42,174 nucleotides of DNA. Source: a virus. The DNA is taken from positions 1 through 42,174 of IMG/VR virus record IMGVR_UViG_3300043410_000181; one strand, 5' to 3'. This document shows, piece after piece, positions 27,503 to 41,061 of the stretch (its first letter is position 1; each line of letters starts with the position of its first letter). The notes beneath the pieces were generated by a model, which searched no databases, was not told where the DNA came from, and saw only the letters and a program-made list of their open reading frames with translations. Made by a program: the position numbers and the translations under genes.

Positions 27503-28333
27503 ATGAATAATATAAAAATGAATCCAATGACGGGTATGCCATATAATCCAGCACCAATGCATGAGTACCTTACTGGATTTGACAAATATAACAGAGAGCT
27601 GCCGATTTATATTGAAAAGCCATTCAATGAAGAACAAATTGCAACACTTAGAGAAGTTATTGAAAAGAATAGAAGACTTATGGATGGGGATGACAAATAT
27701 ACCCCAATGCCTGGCAGTCATGAAGAGTACTATGGTCCAACAAGATATCATCCAAAAAAGATTACTCATATGTCAAGGCTTCTTATTGAGTTTGATTGCC
27801 CACCTATCGTTGAGCAGGCTATGGATGAATATTGTAAGCCACTACATAAAGATCCAATTCGACTAACACACTACAACTACATTGATTATGATATGAAGTA
27901 TGGTAATGGTGTTGCTGCACCAGCATTGCCACCACATCTAGATGCTGATGAAAACCTAGTCACATTTAACTATATGATTGGCGGTAACGTAGATGATTGG
28001 ACTCTATGGGTAGATGATAAGCCATATGATCTTAAGCTAGGAGATGCTATTATCTTTAGTGCTGTAAATCAAGTACACTGGAGAGATAAGCGTAAGTGGA
28101 AGCCAGGAGAATTTGTAGAAATTGTAAGTTTTGATTATTGTCCAGTAACAAACTATCGTTGGTTGGGGCTAGATAATCCTATTGATGGAAGAATGAATCC
28201 AGAAGGCAGAGAAGAGTATCAGAGAGTACTTTCAGAACATCCTGCCATGAAGTCTGGTTGGAAAATCTATACAGATAGAGGAGCAGAACTTGGGTTTGGC
28301 CCAGGGGAAATTGCAGGATTTGCTAATGAGTAA
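27503..28333 (+). CDS. 2OG-Fe(II) oxygenase-fold protein, tandem copy 3
   Basis: This 276-residue paralog is the longest. H145-x-D147 lies in PPHLDADEN, distal H192 in VHWRDKRK, 44 residues after the Asp. The shared block W.LWVDDKPYDLKLGDA....H.R..W.PGEFVEIVSFDY is well kept. Residues 70-135 add an N-terminal extension with SHEEYYGPTRYHP and LTHYNYIDYD, and residues 215-276 a C-terminal tail. Copy 3 follows a 42-nt gap and a strong AAGGAG site, so it may be expressed apart from copies 1 and 2. The fold call is fairly firm; the reaction is unknown. Confidence 0.72.
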   Translation: MNNIKMNPMTGMPYNPAPMHEYLTGFDKYNRELPIYIEKPFNEEQIATLREVIEKNRRLMDGDDKYTPMPGSHEEYYGPTRYHPKKITHMSRLLIEFDCPPIVEQAMDEYCKPLHKDPIRLTHYNYIDYDMKYGNGVAAPALPPHLDADENLVTFNYMIGGNVDDWTLWVDDKPYDLKLGDAIIFSAVNQVHWRDKRKWKPGEFVEIVSFDYCPVTNYRWLGLDNPIDGRMNPEGREEYQRVLSEHPAMKSGWKIYTDRGAELGFGPGEIAGFANE

Positions 28334-28628
28334 TGAAACAACTTTAGATATGATTAATGGTCTTGCAGAAATTGCAGACTACATGCAGGATGAAGAACTT
28401 ACAACAGCTCTGACTTTTATTGCAAAACTAATAGTAAAACCAGACATTCCTTTGAATGTCGCAACAATTGAAATTGTACGCCTCCAGGCAATTGCTGCTA
28501 AAATGTCTTTTAAGGCAACTTGGATGGCTAACGTAGATAAGGGAGATAGAGCGAAGAAGAATTTGTACTTTACTGCTGCAGAATCAATCAATAACTTGGT
28601 TGCTGCCTTGAAGTACATAACTCGCTAA
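28326..28628 (+). CDS. Small helical protein, unknown function
   Basis: This is a 100-residue, all-helical protein with LVAALKYITR at its end, IEIVRLQAIAAKMSFKATW in the middle and an acidic N-terminus. An in-frame ATG at 28290 would add 12 residues, but the ATG at 28326 overlaps the preceding stop by only 8 nt, as do most neighbours, so I choose it. It lies 8 nt before the Cas4-like exonuclease and may be its partner. No nuclease or zinc motif is present. Confidence 0.6.
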   Translation: MSNETTLDMINGLAEIADYMQDEELTTALTFIAKLIVKPDIPLNVATIEIVRLQAIAAKMSFKATWMANVDKGDRAKKNLYFTAAESINNLVAALKYITR

Positions 28629-28636
28629 GTGGTATT

Positions 28637-29470
28637 ATGGCTAAGAACCTATTAAGTCAGGTAATGTTGAAAAAGATTGATAACAATCCAGCAGCATTCC
28701 TAGATACAAAAGAATTTATTGCAAAGCTTGAGAGTGGATACACTATCAGCCGTGTAGCTAAATTCCAAAAAAAGAAAACATTTGCACCAAGTACAATTGC
28801 ATACTCTCATGGAGAATGCCCTAGATACTGGTATCTTGCATTTGATGGCGGAATCTTTGAAGATTATGCTGATGCATTTGGTGTAGCTAATATGACAAAT
28901 GGAACTTTGTCACATGGAAGAATTCAGGATGCTATGTTGGCATCGGGAGTCGCAAAGGAATTTGTTGACGATAATGGTAACAAGACTACTGAATTTAAAA
29001 TTATAAGTAATGATCCTCCTATCTTTGGTTATGGAGACGCAATGCTTGAGTGGATGGGTGACGACATTGTTGGAGAAATTAAAACCTCTAGTAGTGAAGC
29101 ATTCGAATACCGCAAAGCTGCAGGTAAGCCAAAGAATGGTCACCTAATTCAGCTATTGATCTATATGAAGATCCTTGGCAAGAGCAAGGGTGTAATTATT
29201 TATGAAAATAAAAACAATCATGAGCTATTGGTATTACCAGTTGAGGTAACACCAGGTAGCTATTATGTATCGTGGGTAAACAATGCATTTGATTGGATGC
29301 GAGCAGTTCGTAAGGCTTGGACAGATAGGACAATGCCTGAAAAGAACTATCGCTCTAATTCAAAAATCTGTAAGACATGTCCCCTAAAGGCTGTCTGTTC
29401 AGAAGCTGGCAAGGGAGATATAAAGATCAAATCTCTGGAGCCACTTGATGAAACATTGTCAGTATTGTGA
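28637..29470 (+). CDS. Cas4/RecB-like PD-(D/E)XK exonuclease with Fe-S cysteines
   Basis: This 277-residue nuclease has D134 in GYGDAMLEW, E147-x-K149 in VGEIKTSS, and H169...Q172 in HLIQLLIYMKI, the catalytic set of RecB-family PD-(D/E)XK enzymes. Four Cys fit the Cas4/AddB iron-sulfur site: C61 (GECPRYW) and C245-x2-C248-x5-C254 (CKTCPLKAVC). It would resect DNA ends to single strands for the RecA-like protein; a spacer-acquisition role is unlikely as no other cas gene or array is present. It overlaps the next gene by 23 nt. Confidence 0.85.
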   Translation: MAKNLLSQVMLKKIDNNPAAFLDTKEFIAKLESGYTISRVAKFQKKKTFAPSTIAYSHGECPRYWYLAFDGGIFEDYADAFGVANMTNGTLSHGRIQDAMLASGVAKEFVDDNGNKTTEFKIISNDPPIFGYGDAMLEWMGDDIVGEIKTSSSEAFEYRKAAGKPKNGHLIQLLIYMKILGKSKGVIIYENKNNHELLVLPVEVTPGSYYVSWVNNAFDWMRAVRKAWTDRTMPEKNYRSNSKICKTCPLKAVCSEAGKGDIKIKSLEPLDETLSVL

Positions 29471-29771
29471 TACTTACTTCACACCAAACACATCCTACCA
29501 AATCTACTGTTCTAGCGGATGTCGTGAACTAGCTACTAAAGAAAAGATAGCACAACGATATGAGCAGACTAGAAGAGAGAGAAGGAGAAGCAAAGTTAGA
29601 CAGTGTAAGGTCTGTGGTTCAGAACTGTCAATGTATAACGATGATGTAACGTGTGATGGATGCATAATTGTTCCAAAAGAATTTAGTAAAATATTAAGAC
29701 AAATAAAGGGAATCGCAAATGGTAAACTTGTCCTTGATGACGAATCAACCACACAAGATCTGGGCGATTGA
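29448..29771 (+). CDS. Small double zinc-finger protein
   Basis: This 107-residue protein has two four-Cys zinc sites: C4-x2-C7...C21-x3-C25 (YCSSGCRE) and C53-x2-C56...C69-x2-C72. Between them is a basic helix (QTRRERRRSKVRQ). The first site resembles the zinc ribbons found with phage nucleases. A TTG start at 29445 is also possible; the ATG at 29448 is preferred. Overlapping genes on both sides (23 nt upstream and 53 nt downstream) place it in the recombination operon, probably as a nucleic-acid-binding factor. Confidence 0.65.
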   Translation: MKHCQYCDTYFTPNTSYQIYCSSGCRELATKEKIAQRYEQTRRERRRSKVRQCKVCGSELSMYNDDVTCDGCIIVPKEFSKILRQIKGIANGKLVLDDESTTQDLGD

Positions 29772-30297
29772 CGCAAGTACCAACAGTCTTGCCTTCAGTA
29801 TATTTGAGGGCAAGGCTTTGGTTGCTTTTGGCAAGATTAATTTTAGTGGCAAGACAACCTATGAGAAGGTTATAGATGCTTGTAAAAAAACTAAAGCGTT
29901 CATGAATGAGTATGGATATCCAGAAGCTATTGTAATTGAACATACTGTATTTATGAATAGTCCAAAGACAGCAGCTGATCTGGCATTGGTACAGGGAGCA
30001 CTTTTAGGTGCAGCAGGCATCACTGGTACAAATGAGATCAGGTCTGTGGCACCAATTACATGGCAAAACTATATTGGTAATAAAAAGCTAACTAAGGAAG
30101 AAAAGTTTGAGCTTAAGAAAAAGTTTCCAGATAAAAGTGATTCATGGCTTAAAGCACATGAGCGAAATCTCAGAAAAGAAAAAACTATTAATTATATTAA
30201 TATTCAATATGATAGGCTGGTCAGTGATAATGACGTTGCTGATGCTATTGGTATTGGGCATTATGCGATAAATAACTGGGGGAAGTTGACAAACTAA
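29719..30297 (+). CDS. ruvC: RuvC-like Holliday junction resolvase
   Basis: This 192-residue protein has an RNase H fold with the RuvC acidic residues D18 (WAIDASTNS), E74 (AIVIEHTVF) and D172/D175 (NDVADAIGIG). It would cut Holliday junctions during recombination or clear branched DNA before packaging. The ATG at 29719 follows AAAGGG at a good distance; the later in-frame ATG at 29737 has no ribosome site. That choice gives a 53-nt overlap with the zinc-finger gene in another frame. Confidence 0.85.
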   Translation: MVNLSLMTNQPHKIWAIDASTNSLAFSIFEGKALVAFGKINFSGKTTYEKVIDACKKTKAFMNEYGYPEAIVIEHTVFMNSPKTAADLALVQGALLGAAGITGTNEIRSVAPITWQNYIGNKKLTKEEKFELKKKFPDKSDSWLKAHERNLRKEKTINYINIQYDRLVSDNDVADAIGIGHYAINNWGKLTN

Positions 30298-30314
30298 TGG
30301 CAAAGTTGTATACT
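30286..30314 (+). promoter_or_regulatory. Consensus promoter inside the small HTH gene
   Basis: TTGACA (30286) and TATACT (30309) are exactly 17 nt apart. The start point near 30321 is downstream of the small HTH start codon (30297), so this promoter cannot make that protein. It would drive the membrane-anchored gene at 30446 and those after it. Confidence 0.65.
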
Positions 30315-30449
30315 AATGAAGCATGGTTAAGAAAAAGATTTCATGTAGATAGAAAGTCTCCAGAACAGATAGCACAGGAATGTGGTGTAAGTGCTGAGAC
30401 TATATATGTTTATTTAGCAAAATTTGGATTAAGGAAATCAAGAAGATGA
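30297..30449 (+). CDS. Small helix-turn-helix protein, 50 residues
   Basis: This protein is basic throughout and contains SPEQIAQECGVSAETIYVYL, a clean homeodomain-like helix-turn-helix, then KFGLRKSRR. Its start shares one base with the RuvC stop and its end overlaps the next gene by 4 nt (ATGA), both typical of real genes here. Such short HTH proteins can act as DNA-binding regulators or dimerise to control their own promoter; the consensus promoter at 30286 overlaps its start region. Function unproven. Confidence 0.7.
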   Translation: MAKLYTNEAWLRKRFHVDRKSPEQIAQECGVSAETIYVYLAKFGLRKSRR

Positions 30450-30955
30450 AAAAATTTATTGGGTATGGACTAGTAGTTGCTGTAATGGCAGGACTAGGAT
30501 TGTGGATTGCAATGCCAACGATCAATCAGGATAATTGTATTCACGTGTATGTTGAGTTTGGTGCTCTAGACAATAATAAGAAGTCAGAAAAGTGTGTTAA
30601 TTCTTCACAGGCTATGAATGCCCTAGACGTTATGAATTATGCAGGAATTGACATTTCTGGTACCAAGAAGTATGGCAATCAGATCGTATGTCGTTTGGAC
30701 AATATGCCATCTGCGACAAAGCCAATTGGGCTAAAGGGCCACGAAGACTATATTGAGTCATGTACAGATATGCCAGCAGAGTTCGCATACTGGGGTGTAT
30801 TCGTTAAGCCATATAAGAAGGCAAATGTACCACTTGACTTCCATACAGGATGGAACTGGGCAGAGACTGGAATTGATAAGGTAACTCTAAATCCAGGAGA
30901 CAGCATTGGCTTGGTATTTCAGGCAAATGAAAAGGTATCTCTACCACAGGAGTAG
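30446..30955 (+). CDS. Membrane-anchored DUF4430/transcobalamin-like domain protein
   Basis: The 169-residue protein opens with MKKF and a hydrophobic helix (residues 5-22, GLVVAVMAGLGLWIAM), a signal anchor or uncleaved signal. The exported part has C31, C50, C82 and C106 and a pattern resembling DUF4430-type domains of actinobacterial surface proteins: IHVYVEFG, A.NALDVMNYAGID..G, YG..IVCRLDNMPS, SCTDMPAEFAYWGVFV, W.WAETGI and a final LNPGDSIGLVF. That domain is related to the beta domain of transcobalamin/intrinsic factor. I infer possible corrinoid binding; the homology is from memory of the pattern. It overlaps the HTH gene and is served by the promoter at 30286. Confidence 0.6.
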   Translation: MKKFIGYGLVVAVMAGLGLWIAMPTINQDNCIHVYVEFGALDNNKKSEKCVNSSQAMNALDVMNYAGIDISGTKKYGNQIVCRLDNMPSATKPIGLKGHEDYIESCTDMPAEFAYWGVFVKPYKKANVPLDFHTGWNWAETGIDKVTLNPGDSIGLVFQANEKVSLPQE

Positions 30956-30957
30956 TT

Positions 30958-31254
30958 TTGGCAAGAAAAAAGCAAATAGCAATAGCAACAGAGACTAAGT
31001 TCTTGAGAGAACACACAATGCTCTGTGACGGATTTGAAATAGTCCGTGGTGATATAATTAAGGTAAGTGGACAGTATGGTCTCAAATTCAAATTTGATGC
31101 TGTAGTGACCAATACTGAAACTGGTTCAAAATGGGTAGACTGCTTTGAACTATTCAGAGGGCAGTCGCAATGCTTTAGATCTTTTGATATGGGTCAGGTA
31201 AAGCGAATCCCACAAAGAGGCAAGAGAGGTAGAAAGCGTGTCATCCAAGACTAA
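30958..31254 (+). CDS. Small basic protein, unknown function
   Basis: This 98-residue, strongly basic protein (KRIPQRGKRGRKR near the end) begins with TTG, two bases after the preceding stop, with CAGGAG as ribosome site. Strands such as FEIVRGDIIKVSG, FKFDAVVTNTETGSKWVDCFE suggest a small beta barrel, perhaps SH3-like. It resembles small phage proteins of unknown function. Nucleic acid binding is a reasonable guess from charge. It shares 17 nt with the next gene. Confidence 0.6.
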   Translation: MARKKQIAIATETKFLREHTMLCDGFEIVRGDIIKVSGQYGLKFKFDAVVTNTETGSKWVDCFELFRGQSQCFRSFDMGQVKRIPQRGKRGRKRVIQD

Positions 31255-31978
31255 GTACTTTGACAATCCAACTAATGTTTGGGTTATCGATGACTTTTTT
31301 ACAGAAGAATTGGCTAATGAGTTGGCTGAAAACTTTTATGAATATGATGATGAAAGATGGTTGACACGCAATCACTCAGAGTTTGAAGAAAAGCTTTTGT
31401 CAACACATTGGGATTGGTATCCTGCTGTGTTGTACAAAACTTTCTTTGATCTTGCTTCACAAGATTTTGTGAATATCCTTGAGGATATGACTGGAATAGA
31501 TAATCTAATTGCAGATTATGGATTGCATGCAGGTGGTATGCATCTGCACTCTAGCAATGCTAGGCTGAATCTACATCAAGATGCAAAGCTTCACCCAAAG
31601 CTTGGCTTAGTAAGAAAACTTAATATTATAGTTTATTTAAATAAAGATTGGCAAGAGTCCTGGGGTGGAGAACTAGAGTTCTGGAATAGCATAAGCGGAG
31701 AGCCAGGAGAAAAGGTATTCTCAGTATGGCCAAAGTTTAATCGTGCAGTTATTTTTCAGACAGATAATGACTTCTGGCATGGTCTTCCAGAAATGATTGC
31801 TGCTCCAAATGGACAGAATCGTCAAAGTATTGCTATGTTCTATTATGTAGAAAACTCTGATAATGCTATAATGGATACAAGATCACGTTTTGCACTGACT
31901 CAAGAACAAAAGTCAAACCCAGAACTTGTAAAGAAAAATGAAGAAAGAATGAGAACGGCTTTTAAATATGGAAGATAA
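31238..31978 (+). CDS. Prolyl-4-hydroxylase-like 2OG-Fe(II) oxygenase
   Basis: This 246-residue protein shows the complete 2OG-FeII_Oxy_3 pattern: H113-x-D115 in NLHQDAKLHP, LNIIVYLNKDW..SWGGELEFW, distal H181 in FWHGLPE, and the cosubstrate Arg195 in NRQSIAMFYY. It is therefore the most typical of the four oxygenase-fold proteins here, related to prolyl hydroxylases. Phage homologs are known but their targets are mostly unknown. The start is GTG at 31238 after GAGAGG. It is coupled to the terminase small subunit by an 11-nt overlap, hinting at modification of virion proteins or DNA late in infection. Confidence 0.85.
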   Translation: MSSKTKYFDNPTNVWVIDDFFTEELANELAENFYEYDDERWLTRNHSEFEEKLLSTHWDWYPAVLYKTFFDLASQDFVNILEDMTGIDNLIADYGLHAGGMHLHSSNARLNLHQDAKLHPKLGLVRKLNIIVYLNKDWQESWGGELEFWNSISGEPGEKVFSVWPKFNRAVIFQTDNDFWHGLPEMIAAPNGQNRQSIAMFYYVENSDNAIMDTRSRFALTQEQKSNPELVKKNEERMRTAFKYGR

Positions 31979-32501
31979 GCTAGTAGAGCATTTGGACAAT
32001 GTCAATAAGGTTGTAGAAAAATATCTTGCAGGCAGTGATCCAACCCAAATCTCTAAGGAACTATCTGTTCCAAGACAGACTGTAGTCGCATATATTAATG
32101 AATGGCGACAGATGGCAGCTGATAATGCTGCTATTCGTGCACGTGCTAAGGAAGCCCTAGTTGGTGCAGACACACACTATAGCAAACTTATATCAAAAGC
32201 ATATGAAGTTATTGATGAAGCAACAACAACAGCTAACCTGACTGCAAAAACACAGGGTATTAAGTTGGTTATGGATCTAGAGAAGACTCGTATCGAAATG
32301 CTACAGAAAGCTGGTCTTCTTGAGAATAAAGAGCTTGCAGAGGAAATGATTGAAATTGAAAACCGTCAAGAAATACTTGTTGGTATCCTTAAGGATATTG
32401 CTGCTGAGCATCCAGAGGTACGTGACAAGATTATGCGTAGACTATCAGATGCTTCAAAGGAAAAAGAAGTAATCACAGTAGTGGTAAATAATAATGTTTG
32501 A
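31968..32501 (+). CDS. terS: Terminase small subunit
   Basis: This 177-residue protein has a helix-turn-helix near residues 19-48 (DPTQISKELSVPRQTVVAYI) for binding the packaging site, a long helical middle for oligomerisation, and an acidic then hydrophobic tail (VITVVVNN). It overlaps the large terminase gene by 8 nt, which gives the main support. The size fits TerS proteins. An extended -10 (TGCTATAAT) lies ~96 nt before its start, without -35. Confidence 0.8.
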   Translation: MEDKLVEHLDNVNKVVEKYLAGSDPTQISKELSVPRQTVVAYINEWRQMAADNAAIRARAKEALVGADTHYSKLISKAYEVIDEATTTANLTAKTQGIKLVMDLEKTRIEMLQKAGLLENKELAEEMIEIENRQEILVGILKDIAAEHPEVRDKIMRRLSDASKEKEVITVVVNNNV

Positions 32502-34272
32502 TGATTTTTTAGATGCACTTAAATCAGATAATTTTTCTGAGAGACCAGTGGATGCACGTACATTTGTTGAGGGAGAAGACTTCCTTAACCAGCCACCACT
32601 GTCTCAAATTCAGTATGATATTGTAGAAGCAATGTCACAAATCTATAAACTAGAGGACGTAATTGAACTACTTGGCGAAGAAGATGGTAGACGCTACTAT
32701 AAGAAGTATACAAAGAATGAGGTTATTCTACAGTTGGGTAAGGGGTCTGGTAAGGACTTTACGTCAACAGTTGCATGTGCGTATATTGTTTATAAGCTTT
32801 TATGCCTTAAGGATCCTGCAAGATATTTTGGAAAACCAAGTGGTGATGCCATTGATATCATTAACGTTGCTATTAACGCACAGCAAGCAAAGAACGTCTT
32901 CTTTAAAGGATTTAAAACAAAAATTGAAAAGTCGCCATGGTTTGCAGGAAAGTTTAATGCAAAGGCAGAGTCTATCGAATTTGATCACTCCATCACAGTT
33001 TATTCGGGGCACTCAGAACGAGAATCACACGAGGGTCTCAACCTTATCCTTGCGGTGCTTGATGAGATCTCTGGTTTTGCTACAGAAGTTGGAACTGGAA
33101 ACGAACAGGGTAAGACTGCAGATAATATCTATAAAGCTTTCCGAGCTTCTGTAGACTCACGTTTCCCTGATCTTGGTAAAGTAGCACTGCTATCCTTCCC
33201 ACGTTTCCCAGGAGACTTCATCTCACAAAGATATGATGATGTAATTGCTGATAAGAATGTTATCCATAAGACTCACAAATTTATTATGAATGAAGATATT
33301 CCTGAAGACGCTGAGGGCAACTCTTTGGAAATTGAGTGGGAAGAAGATGAAATTGTTTCATACAAGTATCCAGGAGTATTTGCATTAAAGAGACCTACAT
33401 GGGTTGTAAACCCAACACGTAAGATCGATGACTTTAAAACATCTTTCTTTACGGATATGGGAGATGCCATGCAGCGTTTTGCTTGTGTTCCTACATACAT
33501 GTCAGATGCATTCTTTAGACAGCGTGACAAGGTTCGCTCAGCGATGAGCATTAGAAATCCTTTAGATCAGTTTAGAAGATTTGAAGCTAACTTTGAGCCA
33601 GACCCTGATAAGGTATATTATGTTCATGCTGACCTTGCTCAGCGACATGACAAATGTGCTGTGGCTATTGCTCACGTAGACAAATGGGTAAATGTTCAGG
33701 TAATTAAAGATTATCAGCAAGTATCTCCAATTGTTGTGGTAGATGCTGTAGCGTGGTGGGAGCCAAAGATCGAAGGACCTGTTGACCTATCTGAGGTTAA
33801 GCAGTGGATTCAGAATCTAAGAAGACTAGGTTTTAATATCGGAATGGTTTCATTTGACAGATGGCAATCATTTGATATTCAAAAAGAACTTACAGAGGTG
33901 GGTATGAGAACAGAGACCGTATCTGTAGGCAAAAAGCACTATGAGGATATGGCCATGCTTATCTATGAGGATAGACTAGCTATGCCAGCAATCGAACTTT
34001 TGTTCGAAGAACTTACAGAGCTTAAGATCACTAAGAATGGTAAGAATGTAGACCACCCACGTAAGCTATCAAAAGACTTAGCTGACGCTGTGTGTGGTTC
34101 CATTTTTGGTGCTATAAGTCACACGCCAAGAGACCTAAATCTTGAGGTAGAAATTCATACATTCAGAAGTAGACCTAAAACTGAACTTGACAAGGCTAAG
34201 CAAGATGTGATAGAATATAAGCCTATGCCAAAAGAGGTAAGAGACTACTTGGATAGACTAAAACTAATATAA
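32494..34272 (+). CDS. terL: Terminase large subunit (packaging motor)
   Basis: This 592-residue enzyme packages DNA into the prohead. The ATPase part has GKGSGKD (residues 82-88, Walker A) and LILAVLDE (184-191, Walker B and catalytic Glu). The nuclease part has D380 in VHADLAQRHDKCA, D455 in SFDRWQS and D531 in LADAVCG, an RNase H-like acidic triad. The usual order terS-terL is kept, but the next genes are secreted proteins and RNR rather than portal and capsid, so the structural operon is split. The 3' end holds a promoter for the next gene. Confidence 0.95.
   Translation: MFDDFLDALKSDNFSERPVDARTFVEGEDFLNQPPLSQIQYDIVEAMSQIYKLEDVIELLGEEDGRRYYKKYTKNEVILQLGKGSGKDFTSTVACAYIVYKLLCLKDPARYFGKPSGDAIDIINVAINAQQAKNVFFKGFKTKIEKSPWFAGKFNAKAESIEFDHSITVYSGHSERESHEGLNLILAVLDEISGFATEVGTGNEQGKTADNIYKAFRASVDSRFPDLGKVALLSFPRFPGDFISQRYDDVIADKNVIHKTHKFIMNEDIPEDAEGNSLEIEWEEDEIVSYKYPGVFALKRPTWVVNPTRKIDDFKTSFFTDMGDAMQRFACVPTYMSDAFFRQRDKVRSAMSIRNPLDQFRRFEANFEPDPDKVYYVHADLAQRHDKCAVAIAHVDKWVNVQVIKDYQQVSPIVVVDAVAWWEPKIEGPVDLSEVKQWIQNLRRLGFNIGMVSFDRWQSFDIQKELTEVGMRTETVSVGKKHYEDMAMLIYEDRLAMPAIELLFEELTELKITKNGKNVDHPRKLSKDLADAVCGSIFGAISHTPRDLNLEVEIHTFRSRPKTELDKAKQDVIEYKPMPKEVRDYLDRLKLI
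34187..34216 (+). promoter_or_regulatory. Promoter for the secreted surface-like protein
   Basis: TTGACA (34187) and TAGAAT (34211) are 18 nt apart, with TGA as an extended -10. It lies inside the terL end; the start point would be near 34223, ~70 nt before the gene at 34295. Confidence 0.55.
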
Positions 34273-34294
34273 GAAGAAAATGGAGAATATATAT

Positions 34295-35296
34295 ATGACT
34301 TCTGTTAAGAAGATCGCATTCGCAGTGGTTGCAGCTACTGCCCTTGCAACATCACTAATCGCAACACCTGCAAGTGCTGCAGTAGCTACTACTCTAACTG
34401 TTGGCGGTTCGTCAGCTGTTGGCGGTACTGCTGTATCAGCACCAGTAGCACTTCCAGTTCCTGCAGATAACTCTGTAGATTCTGCTGATGCACTAAAGAT
34501 TGCCCTAACAGGCCTTGACACTGGAACAACTGTTTCTGCTGTCGCAACTAACGGAAAGATCGTTACTGCTCTTTCAACTGGAGATGTACGAGTAACTGCT
34601 TCTGCAGGTGCTTCATCTGTATCAGTTAATACTGGTACTGGTACTACTGCAGACCTATACGTATTTACCACTACTACTGCAGTTGGCACTGTAGCAGTTA
34701 CTGTTGGTGGAAATACTACCACCTATTACTTCCAGGGTACTGCTGGTGCACTAAATGCAATTGAACTTGCTGGTGCTGCTACTGGTGCTGCTGGTACTGT
34801 ATATACTGCAACCGTAAAGGGTGTTGACGTATTTGGTAATGCTAAGGGTAATGCTGCTATCAGCCTTCAGGTTGTGACAAGCACTACATCAACCACTTAT
34901 TCACTAACTACTGATACTGCAACTGCAACTCTTGGTTCAAAGACTCAGGACATCACTCTTCCAGCAACTGGAACTGTACGTCTTATTGCAACTGCAACTG
35001 TTGCTTCTGCTGTAACTGGTCTTGCAACTCCTGTTGCTGTTCGTGTTGCAGATGTAACTGTTCGTGATCTTGCTTCTGAGCTTGCTGCTGAGAAGGCTGC
35101 TCGTGCTGCTGACAAGGTAGCTGCAGATAAGGCTGTTGCTGATGCACTTGCTCTTGTTGCTGCTAAGGATGCAGAACTTGCAAAGGCAAAGGCAGACAAT
35201 GCTGCATCTGTAGATGCTCTAAAGAAGGCATTTAATGCACTTGCAACTAAGTGGAACAAGAAGAATCCAAAGGCAAAGGTTGCACTACTTAAGTAA
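34295..35296 (+). CDS. Secreted Ala/Thr-rich surface-like protein
   Basis: This 333-residue protein has a textbook signal peptide (MTSVKKIAFAVVAATALATS, cut after TPASA). Residues ~30-250 are Ala/Thr/Val/Gly-rich and beta-prone, with immunoglobulin-like or S-layer-like character. Residues ~255-333 are a coiled coil (ELAAEKAARAADKVAADKAV) ending in a basic KWNKKNPKAKVALLK, a tail style I associate with actinobacterial surface proteins. An ATG at 34280 is in frame, but GGAGA is 8 nt before 34295 and gives a proper signal peptide, so I choose 34295. It has its own promoter and terminator. It could coat the host surface, block superinfection or be a host-derived adhesin. Confidence 0.7.
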   Translation: MTSVKKIAFAVVAATALATSLIATPASAAVATTLTVGGSSAVGGTAVSAPVALPVPADNSVDSADALKIALTGLDTGTTVSAVATNGKIVTALSTGDVRVTASAGASSVSVNTGTGTTADLYVFTTTTAVGTVAVTVGGNTTTYYFQGTAGALNAIELAGAATGAAGTVYTATVKGVDVFGNAKGNAAISLQVVTSTTSTTYSLTTDTATATLGSKTQDITLPATGTVRLIATATVASAVTGLATPVAVRVADVTVRDLASELAAEKAARAADKVAADKAVADALALVAAKDAELAKAKADNAASVDALKKAFNALATKWNKKNPKAKVALLK

Positions 35297-35310
35297 TTTA
35301 AGTTAACATC

Positions 35311-35339
35311 AAAGGGACTGGGAAACTGGTCCCTTTTTT
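35311..35339 (+). terminator. Intrinsic terminator after the surface-like protein
   Basis: An 8-bp stem AAAGGGAC/GTCCCTTT (35311-35318 with 35329-35336), 10-nt loop and a T-run to 35339. Together with the promoter at 35391 it fills the 163-nt gap before the RNR gene. Confidence 0.85.
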
Positions 35340-35390
35340 GTTACCGTTTTGTAATATTAATAACTATCAAGTATTACTTGAAGGAGAGTT

Positions 35391-35419
35391 TTGCAAAAAT
35401 AAAAACACTATGCTATAAT
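35391..35419 (+). promoter_or_regulatory. Promoter for the ribonucleotide reductase gene
   Basis: TTGCAA (35391) and TATAAT (35414) are 17 nt apart, with TGC before the -10. Start point near 35426. GGAG precedes the ATG at 35460. No cobalamin riboswitch is apparent: the expected leader of ~34 nt is far too short. Confidence 0.65.
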
Positions 35420-35459
35420 TATTTTCTGATTAATTTTAAAATTACATAAAGGAGCGTAA

Positions 35460-37490
35460 ATGTCAGATTTCTTTTCCTTCAGACTTGCTGAAGAGTTCAT
35501 TGATAAGTACAAGGCTACTGAATCGCCTTTCGGTTTTAGAGACGCTGGTGATAACTCACTAGGAGAGATTACGTTTATTAGAACCTACTCCCGTATTAAA
35601 GATGATGGAACTAAAGAAAGATGGCACGAAGTATGTCGCCGTGTAATTGAGGGTATGTACTCAGTACAAAAGAATCACGCTAAAGAAAATCGTCTTCCAT
35701 GGAATGACTATAAGGCTCAGAAGTCAGCACAGGAAGCATTTGATAGAATGTTTAACCTTAAGTGGACTCCTCCTGGACGTGGTCTATGGTCATTTGGAAC
35801 TCCACTAACAATGGAAAAGCGTAACTCAGCAGCCCTCCAGAACTGTGCTGTGGTCTCTACAAAGGATCTTGATAAGAATGACCCAGGAGCACTATTTGCT
35901 TGGGTTATGGACGCTCTAATGCTTGGTATTGGTGTTGGCTTTGATACACTAGGTCAGGATAAGAACTGGCAGATTTATGCACCTACAGAACCAGCAGTAA
36001 CTTGGCAGATTACAGATGATCGTGAAGGCTGGGTAGAATCTACAAGACTTTTGATTAACTCATTCCTTCGTCCAAACCAGCCAGTACAAGAGTTTGACTA
36101 TTCTATTATTCGCCCATATGGAGCACCTATTAAGGGCTTTGGAGGCACTGCATCAGGACCAGAGCCACTAATTAAGATGCATGAAGCTATCCGTAAGGCA
36201 GTTGGCTCACGAGCAGGAGAAAAGTTTGACTCACGTGCTATTGTAGACATTATTAACCTTATTGGTACTTGTGTTGTTGCTGGTAACGTTCGCCGTTCAG
36301 CTACCCTTGCACTTGGTGTCGATGGCGATGAAGACTTCCTAAACCTAAAGAATGCAGAAGCATTCCCAGAGCGTAACTCATATGATCCAGAAAATCCAGG
36401 TTGGGCATGGATGTCTAATAACTCTATCTCAGCAACTGTTGGGATGGACTACTCAAAGTATGTAGACCGCATCGCAGACAATGGTGAGCCAGGATTTATT
36501 TGGCTAGATGTTGCACGTAACTTTGGTCGTCTAGCAGATCCTGCAGATGGTGCAGACTATCGTGTAGTAGGCTTTAATCCATGTGCAGAACAGCCTCTAG
36601 AGTCATATGAGCTATGTACCCTAGTTGAAGTACACCTAAACCGTCACGAGAGCAAGGAAGACTTCCTACGCACTCTAAAGTTTGCCTATCTATATGGTAA
36701 GACAGTTACTCTTCTACCAACTCACTGGCAGCAGACAAACGGTATCATGCAGAGAAACCGCCGTATTGGAACATCTCTAACTGGCATTGCATCATTTGCA
36801 GATGAAAATGGCCTACCAACTGTTCGTGATTGGATGGATGAAGGATACAATAAGATTCGTTTCTATGATAAGAAGTATTCAGAATGGCTATGTGTTCGTG
36901 AGTCAATTCGTGTAACTACAGTTAAGCCATCTGGCTCTGTATCAATTCTTTCTGGTGCAACTCCAGGCGTTCACTGGGGTCCAGGTGGAAAGCACTACCT
37001 ACGTGCTATTCGATTTGGAAATCAGGATCCAATGATGCACCTATTTAGAGCAGCAGGGTATAAGATTGAAGATGACCTAGTGTCAGCAAATACATCAGTA
37101 GTATACTTCCCAGTTGCATCTGGACAGAAGAGAGCAGAAAAGCAGGTAACACTATTTGAAAAGATTGGTCTAGCTGCTACAACACAGAAGTATTGGTCAG
37201 ATAATGGAGTTTCTGTAACTCTATCATTTGACAAGGAAACAGAGAAGCAGCACATTGCATCAGTCCTCAATATGTATGAGGGGCAACTAAAGGCTGTATC
37301 ATTCCTACCAATGGGAAACACAGTTTACCCACAGCAACCATATACTGAAATTACAGAAGATGAATACAATTCATACATTGGTAGTATTAAGAAGATAGAT
37401 TGGTCAGCAATTTATGATGGAATTGAAAATCTTGAAGCACAGGGAGAGGCATACTGTACTACAGATGCATGCGAACTAAAGATTGTCTAG
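35460..37490 (+). CDS. nrdJ: Class II (adenosylcobalamin-dependent) ribonucleotide reductase
   Basis: This 676-residue monomeric enzyme would convert ribonucleoside triphosphates to deoxy forms using coenzyme B12, like the Lactobacillus RTPR. The active-site loop is N373-P-C375-A-E377 (FNPCAEQPL), giving the thiyl Cys and the Glu general base. The C-terminal redox pair is C666 and C671 (YCTTDACEL), which hands electrons to the active site. Other RTPR signs are TPPGRGLWSFG near residue 100, GNVRRSATLALG near 275 and TTVKPSGSVSILSGATPGVH near 485. No NrdA/NrdB is present, so B12 supply is needed for activity. It is flanked by terminators on both sides, making it a one-gene cassette. Confidence 0.95.
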   Translation: MSDFFSFRLAEEFIDKYKATESPFGFRDAGDNSLGEITFIRTYSRIKDDGTKERWHEVCRRVIEGMYSVQKNHAKENRLPWNDYKAQKSAQEAFDRMFNLKWTPPGRGLWSFGTPLTMEKRNSAALQNCAVVSTKDLDKNDPGALFAWVMDALMLGIGVGFDTLGQDKNWQIYAPTEPAVTWQITDDREGWVESTRLLINSFLRPNQPVQEFDYSIIRPYGAPIKGFGGTASGPEPLIKMHEAIRKAVGSRAGEKFDSRAIVDIINLIGTCVVAGNVRRSATLALGVDGDEDFLNLKNAEAFPERNSYDPENPGWAWMSNNSISATVGMDYSKYVDRIADNGEPGFIWLDVARNFGRLADPADGADYRVVGFNPCAEQPLESYELCTLVEVHLNRHESKEDFLRTLKFAYLYGKTVTLLPTHWQQTNGIMQRNRRIGTSLTGIASFADENGLPTVRDWMDEGYNKIRFYDKKYSEWLCVRESIRVTTVKPSGSVSILSGATPGVHWGPGGKHYLRAIRFGNQDPMMHLFRAAGYKIEDDLVSANTSVVYFPVASGQKRAEKQVTLFEKIGLAATTQKYWSDNGVSVTLSFDKETEKQHIASVLNMYEGQLKAVSFLPMGNTVYPQQPYTEITEDEYNSYIGSIKKIDWSAIYDGIENLEAQGEAYCTTDACELKIV

Positions 37491-37590: not shown

Positions 37591-40005
37591 TTGAAGAAGT
37601 ATTTTATTCGTTTAGGTATCGTAGGAATTATTTTATTTCTATGGTTAGTTTTTGCACCGTCTGAGACAGCACATGCCGAAGAAGTGACTGTGCAAGTTTC
37701 CCCTGCACAAAATAATGATACATCTACTGTTCAGTCATCAGCAGAGACATCCATAGCTGCTGCAGAAACAGCAATTGCAGAAGCACAAGCATCAATAGAG
37801 TCGGTAGATTTGCAGGCAAATTCACTGTCAAACCAGACACCAGTTGATCAAGCAATACAAAGTGCACAGCAATCTATTGACTCTGTTGCAGCAAATATTG
37901 TAGATGTTCAATCTTCGCTATCTAATTTAAATTTAGCACAACAAGCGGTAGATAGTCAAACTGTTGTAGTAGATTCAGCATCGAATGCTGTATTGCAGCA
38001 AGAATCCGTGGTATCACAAACTGCTCAATCTGTAGAATTGCAAACATTGGTAGTTGAACAAGCACAATCTGATCTATTGATAGCACAAACATCACTACAG
38101 GAAGCATCTGATGCTGTAGATGCACAGATCCCAATTGTTGAGACTGCTCAAGCAAATAAAGATGCTGCACAATCCGTAGTTGACTCCAACACTTCTGCTG
38201 GATTAAAAATGACAGTCTATCAAGATATTGGATATAATAATGCACCCCCAATGGGAGCAGGGACAGTTGTATCAGTAACTACAGACACCAATGGAATTAA
38301 TGAGCCATGGGGTGGAGGTGGACCTGCTAATACATACCCAGAAGACTTCCAAGTTAGATGGCAGGGTATTTGGACACCTCAGTATACTGGAACACAGTGG
38401 ATTTATGCACCAGCAGATGATGGAACAAGATTATATCTTGATGGCCAATTAGTAATTAATGACTGGTTTGATAAAGGTGGTGGTGGTTCTACTGCTGCTG
38501 TTCAAACAACCTCTGGAGTTGGAAAAACATTAGATTTTTGGTTTTATGAAAATGGTGGAGGAGCATCTGTTGCTTTAATGCGTTATACAGGAAATGGGTA
38601 CTGGGAAGTAATTCCAGCATCAGAATTTTCTACATCAAGTGCAACCCCAGAACAGGTGGCTACACTAACATCTGCAGTTCAGATGCTATCTACAGAGCAA
38701 GCAACACTTTCTACTTTGCAACAATCCGAGACTTCTGCAAATAATTTAGTTTTACAAAAGCAAGCCACTGTAATAGATGAGTCCCAAAACCTAACAACTG
38801 CTCAAGAAAACCTAACAACTGCCCAAGAAAACCTAACAATTACTCAAGAAAACCTAACAACTGCTCAAGAAAACCTAACAATTACTCAATCACAGTTACA
38901 GTCTGCAGAGATTTCTGTATCATTAGCAGTTTCTAGCCTTAATGCTTCAGTAGTAACTCTGCAGTCAAATGTAAGCTCTGCTCAATCAGCCTACTCTTCT
39001 GAGGCTAATTACGAAGAGCAGGTAAGGCAAGCTGCCATCGCTGCAGAACAGGCTAGACAGGCTGAGATTGCTAGACTAGCTGCTGAGGCAGAGGCTGCAA
39101 GAATTGCTGCACAACAAGCTTATGAAGCAGAGCAGGCAAGACTTGCTGCAGAAGCACAAGCCAAAGCTGAAGCAGAAGCTAAGGCTGCAGCTGAAAAAGC
39201 AGCAGCAGAAGAGGCTGCAAGGATTGAGGCAGAAAGGATTGCTGCAGAGCAGGCTGCTATAGAACAAGCTGCTGCAGAGGCTAAGGCCAAAGCAGATGCT
39301 GAAGCTGCTGCTCAAGCAGAAGCGGATAGGCTTGCAGCAGAGGCACAAGCTAAGGCTGAAGCGGATGCTCTAGCTCAAGCGGAGGCTGAAGCTGCTGCTC
39401 AACAAGAGCAAGCAACTGATACTCCATTAGATCAGACAGAAACTCCATCTGTAATACAAGTTGATCCAATTCCTTCACAAGATAATTCTACACCAGAAGC
39501 TGTTATAAAAGATGCACTTGCAGATGGAAAGCTAACATCTGAGGAAAAGGCTGCAGTGGTTGATGCACTTGTATCATCCCTTGAGCCAGGACAAGCTTTG
39601 ACAGCAGAGCAGATTAAGGATGCTGGTATTGACTATAAGGATTTGCCACCTGCTACACCAGTTGATGTACGTACAGATGAGAATGGAAATGCTGTAGTTA
39701 TTACAGCACAAGATGCAGCAAATATAGAATTAATTTCTGATCCAGGAGCATTGGTTCAGGAATTATTTAGCGACCCAGGTGCAGCCATCGCTGCTTTGGG
39801 AAGTATTGGGGCTGATATGTCCCCACAAGAAAGAGAAGAAGCAACACACATGGTTGTAGCCACTGTTGTTGCTGCAGGAGCAGCCATGAATGCTATTGGT
39901 TTAGCAGGAGCTGGTGGAGGAAGTGCCCCTTCAGCACCAAGAGGTGGGGGTTCACCTAGTGGTGGAAATTCTGGTGGAACAACAAGGAGAAATGAAAGAT
40001 GGTAA
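37591..40005 (+). CDS. Secreted PA14/coiled-coil protein
   Basis: This 804-residue protein starts with TTG after CAGGAG. Residues 1-29 are a signal peptide (IILFLWLVFAPS core, cut after AHA). Residues 30-200 are coiled coil rich in Gln, Ser and Val. Residues ~201-337 look like a PA14 domain (MTVYQDIGYNN, WTPQYTGTQWIYAPADDGTR, LYLDGQLVINDWF), which binds glycans in adhesins. Residues 400-434 are five heptads of NLTTAQE type. Residues ~465-610 are a long Ala/Glu/Gln-rich coiled coil like TolA. A hydrophobic stretch near 753-778 and an Arg/Gly-rich tail end the protein. The small membrane genes follow with overlapping starts. It may be a lysis, adhesion or surface-display factor; its function is unknown. 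Confidence 0.7.
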   Translation: MKKYFIRLGIVGIILFLWLVFAPSETAHAEEVTVQVSPAQNNDTSTVQSSAETSIAAAETAIAEAQASIESVDLQANSLSNQTPVDQAIQSAQQSIDSVAANIVDVQSSLSNLNLAQQAVDSQTVVVDSASNAVLQQESVVSQTAQSVELQTLVVEQAQSDLLIAQTSLQEASDAVDAQIPIVETAQANKDAAQSVVDSNTSAGLKMTVYQDIGYNNAPPMGAGTVVSVTTDTNGINEPWGGGGPANTYPEDFQVRWQGIWTPQYTGTQWIYAPADDGTRLYLDGQLVINDWFDKGGGGSTAAVQTTSGVGKTLDFWFYENGGGASVALMRYTGNGYWEVIPASEFSTSSATPEQVATLTSAVQMLSTEQATLSTLQQSETSANNLVLQKQATVIDESQNLTTAQENLTTAQENLTITQENLTTAQENLTITQSQLQSAEISVSLAVSSLNASVVTLQSNVSSAQSAYSSEANYEEQVRQAAIAAEQARQAEIARLAAEAEAARIAAQQAYEAEQARLAAEAQAKAEAEAKAAAEKAAAEEAARIEAERIAAEQAAIEQAAAEAKAKADAEAAAQAEADRLAAEAQAKAEADALAQAEAEAAAQQEQATDTPLDQTETPSVIQVDPIPSQDNSTPEAVIKDALADGKLTSEEKAAVVDALVSSLEPGQALTAEQIKDAGIDYKDLPPATPVDVRTDENGNAVVITAQDAANIELISDPGALVQELFSDPGAAIAALGSIGADMSPQEREEATHMVVATVVAAGAAMNAIGLAGAGGGSAPSAPRGGGSPSGGNSGGTTRRNERW
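38788..38892 (+). repeat. Five tandem 21-nt repeats (heptad NLTTAQE)
   Basis: Copies begin at 38788, 38809, 38830, 38851 and 38872. Copies 1 and 4 are identical; the others differ by one or a few bases. They code for seven-residue units in phase with a coiled coil, so slippage changes rod length without a frameshift. Confidence 0.9.
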
Positions 40006-40536: not shown

Positions 40537-41061
40537 ATGACCTGCATTGTTGCAGCACGACAAAACGATAAGATTTATATGGCAGGTGACAGAGGTGCAT
40601 CTGAAACCAATTTAATTATGTCTCTTACTAGTCCAAAAGTTTGGAAACATGGAGAATATGTTTTTGGTTACTGTGGATCAATGGATGGCGATAGAATGAA
40701 ATATAATTTCAAGCCACCAGCACCAAAGGGTGATGATCTAGATAAGTTTATGTATACTGATTTTCTTATTTCACTACGTGTATTCTATGAAAATTGGTGG
40801 GTAGATGTTTCTAATGATTCTGATTTTGGCTTATTAATTGGAATTCGTGGAAAAATTTATGAACATAATGCCGTAGATATGTCGTTGAATCAATATATGC
40901 ATGATTATATTGCTATGGGTTCAGGATCTGAATATGCATATGGTTCCATGTACTCTACTGAAGGACTAAAGGATACACGTAAGCGTGTAATGAAAGCAGT
41001 AGGTGCTGCAATAAAATTTTCAACTTCTTGCCAAGGTCCAGTTGACATTGTCACCTCTTAG
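40537..41061 (+). CDS. Proteasome beta/HslV-like Ntn-hydrolase
   Basis: This 174-residue protein has the length of HslV. After Met removal Thr2 becomes residue 1 (TCIVAARQNDKIYMAGDRGA), Asp18 becomes D17 and Lys34 becomes K33, the exact T1/D17/K33 set of proteasome-type peptidases. A GSG at residues 128-130 (MGSGSEYAYGSM) matches the GSG near Ser129 of 20S beta subunits. The Ntn fold strands FGYCGSMDG and FGLLIGIRGKIYE are in place. No HslU, Mpa/ARC-like ATPase or alpha subunit is in the window, so it would be a stand-alone hydrolase. Substrate unknown. It has its own promoter. Confidence 0.85.
   Translation: MTCIVAARQNDKIYMAGDRGASETNLIMSLTSPKVWKHGEYVFGYCGSMDGDRMKYNFKPPAPKGDDLDKFMYTDFLISLRVFYENWWVDVSNDSDFGLLIGIRGKIYEHNAVDMSLNQYMHDYIAMGSGSEYAYGSMYSTEGLKDTRKRVMKAVGAAIKFSTSCQGPVDIVTS

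Follow-up and report, generated by a model that had tools for sequence, protein, structure and literature searches.

Freshwater phages with a B12-dependent ribonucleotide reductase (RNR) probably bring their own B12-scavenging kit. Specifically, we consider it likely that a membrane-tethered protein, encoded from position 30446 of the DNA analysed here (hereafter, the window: a 42,174-base IMG/VR virus record, which is a fragment), captures cobalamin or another corrinoid for a host transporter and that, in most relatives, a PduO-type adenosyltransferase and the RNR use it. That is, the protein would bind cobalamin or a related corrinoid on the outside of the host's cytoplasmic membrane and pass it to a transporter, most likely the host ECF vitamin transporter, a hand-over in which a small neighbouring membrane protein possibly assists in most relatives. 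Inside the cell, the phage PduO-type enzyme (again, in most relatives) would adenosylate the imported cobalamin, and the resulting adenosylcobalamin would serve as cofactor of the phage class II RNR in making dNTPs for phage DNA. Our computations show the fold, the anchor, the conserved linkage to PduO and RNR, the catalytic residues of the RNR, and purifying selection; cobalamin binding, hand-over to a host transporter and benefit to the phage are inferred without binding data. The capture step is most likely on the basis of fold and context, the adenosylation and reduction steps are most likely given the well-known enzyme families to which the two enzymes are assigned by sequence, and import via the host's ECF transporter, like the part played by the small membrane protein, is inferred.

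More broadly, we lean, on balance, towards the hypothesis that many freshwater tailed phages hold a dedicated B12-acquisition operon (transcobalamin-like surface trap, small membrane protein, adenosyltransferase and B12-dependent RNR) that raises B12 import and activation during infection. If true, phage DNA synthesis would be independent of the host's own B12 supply, the operon would put viruses into the lake B12 economy, and viruses, too, would be employing the fold by which B12 is transported in human blood. B12-dependent RNRs are common in aquatic phages, and it has been suggested that virioplankton with a B12-dependent RTPR may boost the uptake of B12 or its production (Wu et al. 2023, PMC10547690). 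The phages of that study share the class II monomeric RNR with those described here, but no phage uptake gene is named there (neither "B12 transport" nor "BtuB"); the operon thus offers a concrete, testable mechanism for this uptake question. Among the auxiliary metabolic genes listed for wastewater viromes (PMC11183165) is a viral adenosyltransferase (cobA), likewise a cobalamin adenosyltransferase in viruses, but the passage concerned mentions no operon that includes an RNR or a B12-binding protein. The initial annotation of the window knew of no described phage B12-uptake system of this type, and we likewise came across no previous account of either a phage transcobalamin-like protein or the four-gene operon in the literature searched, the coverage of which was partial (few subscription or bioRxiv papers).

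Fold and anchor of the candidate capture protein

The candidate B12-capture protein (30446..30955, + strand, 169 aa; assigned by ORF, AF2 fold and profile match) had been read in the initial annotation as a membrane-anchored protein with a characteristic Cys pattern, and this reading was correct. A single hydrophobic helix lies at its N-terminus (about residues 7-21), and its four cysteines (31, 50, 82 and 106) are invariant across an alignment of 27 diverse homologues. The anchor (residues 7-21, 30464..30508, + strand; AF2 helix and hydrophobic sequence) has no lipobox. An N-terminal hydrophobic helix, which satisfies our criterion of a signal peptide or anchor for a surface location, is present in both the window protein and its homologues; the topology is inferred from it. 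The start of the gene overlaps by 4 nt with a 50-aa HTH-like ORF (30297..30449, + strand, from ORF coordinates, with the HTH read by eye), which suggests that the two are co-translated in the window phage.

Sequence searches with this protein alone revealed no match in Pfam, NCBIfam, PHROGs or the PDB, tblastn against named phages was without match, and seed scans with one or two sequences of the protein recovered almost no relatives; the family was opened by anchoring the scans on the neighbouring adenosyltransferase. PF14478 (DUF4430) did not match the window protein, 28 homologues or ten bacterial relatives at E<=1. In profile-profile comparisons against DUF4430, the phage profile reached 4% probability vs. 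73% (E 3e-5) for the linked bacterial relatives.

Structure prediction provided a stronger signal. The first AF2 model, of the window protein itself (alignment A2 of 28 relatives; pLDDT 65), retrieved 3u7z first and cobalamin carriers next in a fold search. A second model was built for the phage homologue L290, which shares 45% identity with the window protein, from an alignment led by it (A5), and reached pLDDT 85, with the core above 90. With the latter model, Foldseek ranks 1-17 were all transcobalamin, intrinsic factor or 3u7z (probability 0.97-1.00), and the first 15 entries of a second aligner were transcobalamin, haptocorrin, 3u7z and intrinsic factor (Z 10.3-11.3, with 3u7z at Z 10.6) vs. 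Z 6.0 for the next unrelated fold. The match to the transcobalamin, intrinsic factor and haptocorrin beta domains covered 94-100 aligned residues at 2.5-3.2 A, satisfying the criterion that the beta-grasp match extend along the length of the domain. Strands 67-70 and 74-81 of the model directly follow helix 56-62, the order expected for the beta-hairpin insert (coordinates were not inspected). Among catalogued viral structures there was no relative of the L290 model, which does not prove absence.

Hence, the relation to the cobalamin-binding beta domain of transcobalamin that had been proposed from the letters alone was borne out by prediction (Z 10.3-11.3 vs. 6.0). The DUF4430-like domain proposed along with it stood in part: the fold agrees, matching 3u7z (which we take to be a DUF4430 structure) and the transcobalamin group, but the curated cut-off of PF14478 is unmet. 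A transcobalamin-like fold of the 30446 protein is therefore a supported prediction, resting mainly on the model of its homologue and without binding data. The beta domains of transcobalamin, intrinsic factor and haptocorrin (PDB 2bb6, 5np4, 3kq4, 4kki) have the same fold over the whole domain; the phage protein differs in its 16-19% identity to them, its lack of the alpha/alpha-toroid domain (the other half of transcobalamin), its tether by an N-terminal helix and its viral origin. The isolated transcobalamin beta domain binds cobalamin on its own (PMC5599065), so the absence of the toroid domain does not rule out the capture idea. A fold in common with cobalamin carriers is not proof of the ligand, and the ligand-contacting residues were not inspected.

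Bacterial relatives beside ECF transporter genes

Bacterial transcobalamin-like proteins in CbiO/CbiQ operons were predicted earlier to scavenge B12 (Burroughs et al. 2007, PMC1796856), and the actinobacterial relatives found here fit these SLBB proteins of CbiO/CbiQ (ECF) operons, which carry a surface transcobalamin-like domain. For instance, a GTDB scan revealed, in an Aurantimicrobium MAG, a lipoprotein encoded immediately upstream of a fused EcfT-EcfA-EcfA gene and of a gene for a predicted membrane protein that occupies the S-component position. Matches were present in 12 of 396 drawn Actinomycetota genomes, phage and bacterial-relative profiles matched at 99.8%, and several of the bacterial relatives neighbour EcfT (CbiQ), ABC ATPases, ECF substrate components and an alpha/alpha-toroid protein. 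The bacterial versions are either lipoproteins or larger proteins encoded next to ECF genes, frequently accompanied by a toroid partner, whereas the phage copies form their own clade, have no lipobox, and neighbour PduO and RNR instead of ECF genes.

Cobalamin riboswitches were found inside a roughly 13-kb region at four of the 12 bacterial loci and were both upstream and correctly oriented at three of these (L260, L262 and L264). Since genomes typically hold 1-9 such riboswitches, we estimate the chance of finding one near a bacterial locus at about 1% per locus. No cobalamin riboswitch was found in the window or in the phage loci L129, L178, L239 and L241. Separately, true PF14478 genes in Actinomycetota (G069:C44, G031:C36, G091:C34, G080:C5 and G056:C279) have cobalamin riboswitches within about 5 kb, which suggests that DUF4430 itself has a B12 role. 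The likeness of the phage protein to DUF4430 consists of 3u7z as a top fold match and of this proximity of DUF4430 genes to cobalamin riboswitches in several genomes, and the difference is that the phage protein and its bacterial relatives fall below the family by sequence.

A conserved operon in viral relatives

The gene order in phage locus L129 is RNR, transcobalamin-like gene, 54-aa membrane ORF and PduO-type adenosyltransferase. A scan of IMG/VR with the L129 adenosyltransferase recovered 242 relatives, and 80 loci were kept, of which 44 had at least 2.7 kb of upstream sequence; among these 44, the transcobalamin-like gene was present in 41 and the RNR in 40, the genes nearly touching. 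A misassembly of L129 was rejected, as the same order recurs in 40/44 PduO loci with enough upstream sequence. In the reverse test, also in IMG/VR, loci were collected by the transcobalamin-like gene only, and a PduO-type cob(I)alamin adenosyltransferase, a partner absent from the initial annotation, was adjacent in 73/75 loci, with a class II RNR directly upstream in 44/58. The trio of transcobalamin-like gene, small membrane ORF and PduO is also found in differing gene neighbourhoods with no RNR next to it; a class II RNR was nevertheless found somewhere in 15 of the 18 trio-holding records above 40 kb, even in very divergent ones. The anchored protein and the class II RNR thus co-occur non-randomly, directly adjacent as well as in long records, a point that the initial annotation had set as its test.

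The phage adenosyltransferases exceed the cut-off of PF01923 (E 2.4e-27 for L129 and 7e-63 for record G402) and match the corrinoid adenosyltransferase of M. tuberculosis (E 7e-34), and that of L178 aligns to 2g2d and 6wgs through the YTKTGDDG and LHNARTIVRRAER stretches, which together satisfies our criteria for a PduO-type enzyme. The small protein between the transcobalamin-like gene and PduO is a predicted single-pass membrane protein (54 aa, L129:6260-6424), with counterparts of 41-62 aa at about 66 further viral loci; overall, the ORF was present at 67 of the 72 loci holding the transcobalamin-like gene. Its start overlaps the latter gene by 4 nt, its sequence usually ends in a conserved IWRSLTGH-like tail, and its match to DUF4235 is very weak. 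Possibly, it represents a new B12-handling part.

The four-gene operon is strong context evidence that the anchored protein serves B12 supply, and it bears on what the protein binds. Another surface ligand, e.g., cobinamide or a different corrinoid, heme, a sugar or a metal, is conceivable given the varied ligands bound across the SLBB/beta-grasp superfamily (PMC1796856) and the annotation of 3u7z as a putative metal-binding protein. Yet we regard this alternative as quite unlikely with a cobalamin adenosyltransferase next door at nearly every locus, cobalamin riboswitches at the bacterial relatives, and best fold matches that are all cobalamin binders and DUF4430; a non-B12 corrinoid would alter our main reading only slightly. 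It is even less probable that the protein, as a copy of the host's ECF-linked lipoprotein, binds B12 not to feed the RNR but to control the host or competitors by occupying or blocking the host uptake site, e.g., to exclude superinfecting phages or to curb the host's use of B12. These phages showed no transporter gene of their own, the bacterial relatives are ECF-linked surface lipoproteins, and the protein is membrane-anchored as exclusion proteins often are, all of which would suit a blocking role, but a tight operon with PduO and RNR suits adenosylcobalamin supply much better. Hence, we favor capture of cobalamin for the phage's own use.

Because the loci include redundant copies from related phages, the counts above do not represent independent events. 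The varied neighbourhoods, together with a tree of 60 distinct phage sequences in which the phage proteins group in a single clade separate from their bacterial relatives, indicate more than one lineage of near-copies. The phage transcobalamin-like proteins are under purifying selection (median dN/dS 0.27). In L178, the operon lies between the tail-fibre genes and the portal, maturation protease and head genes.

The window phage and its class II RNR

The window encodes a class II (adenosylcobalamin-dependent) monomeric ribonucleoside-triphosphate reductase (35460..37490, + strand, 676 aa) that matches Lactobacillus RTPR 1l1l (phmmer E 8.8e-93), phrog_367 (E 2e-141) and TIGR02505 (E 7e-97, slightly below the curated cut-off). 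The catalytic Cys129, 375, 386, 666 and 671 and Glu377 are all found, and the protein meets the criteria for an RTPR, i.e., catalytic Cys and Glu, the C-terminal Cys pair and full-length homology to 1l1l; the claim that the phage carries a B12-needing RNR was accordingly confirmed. The terminase large subunit gene (32494..34272, + strand; phrog_2 E 5e-14), which lies between the 30446 gene and the RNR, shows that this is a tailed phage. The closest named relative of the RNR is Actinomycetia phage DSL-LC01 (62%) and those of the terminase are Streptomyces phages (54%), which makes an actinobacterial host likely without proving it. In lakes, abundant small actinobacteria rely on external B12 (PMC7527133).

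The window phage departs from the usual arrangement: a stretch of 4.5 kb that contains the terminase gene separates the 30446 gene from the RNR, so that the two share no operon, its transcobalamin-like protein sits on a long branch of the tree, and neither PduO nor the small membrane ORF was found in the 42-kb fragment. Joint occurrence of the two genes, which the initial annotation proposed to survey, holds in loci found by the anchored protein but is rare among the window's closest RNR relatives: the transcobalamin-like gene is present in 2 of 46 long records chosen from the window's RNR and terminase clades and L001. One of these two, G402, has PduO adjoining it, and PduO is absent from all 44 long records without the gene. 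Since most close RNR relatives lack the gene, it is optional.

For the window phage alone, it is possible, albeit unlikely, that the gene has drifted from an ancestral B12 role and that its co-occurrence with the RNR is a leftover. The long branch, the unlinked position and the missing PduO and small membrane genes would be expected from drift, but the protein retains the four cysteines, the conserved tryptophans and the GDSIGLVF stretch, an identical copy of it exists in a second contig, and PduO may lie outside the fragment. The gene pair of the window is real, and the strong functional case for B12 capture rests on the relatives.

Finally, a few other genes of the window were observed. Between the 30446 gene and the RNR lies a 2OG-Fe(II) oxygenase (31238-31978; PF13640 E 7.6e-16), and the RNR is flanked by large secreted or surface-like proteins (34280-35296 and 37591-40005), one of them containing a PA14 domain as well as a long coiled-coil-like stretch. 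The ORF at 40537-41061 has a marginal proteasome-subunit match (PF00227 E 1.1e-4), perhaps HslV-like, and an HslV-type protease is also annotated in phage DSL-LC01. The genome of this freshwater phage (L268, OQ999401) also carries an annotated "cobalamin biosynthesis protein" (28313-30142) and encodes a class II RNR.
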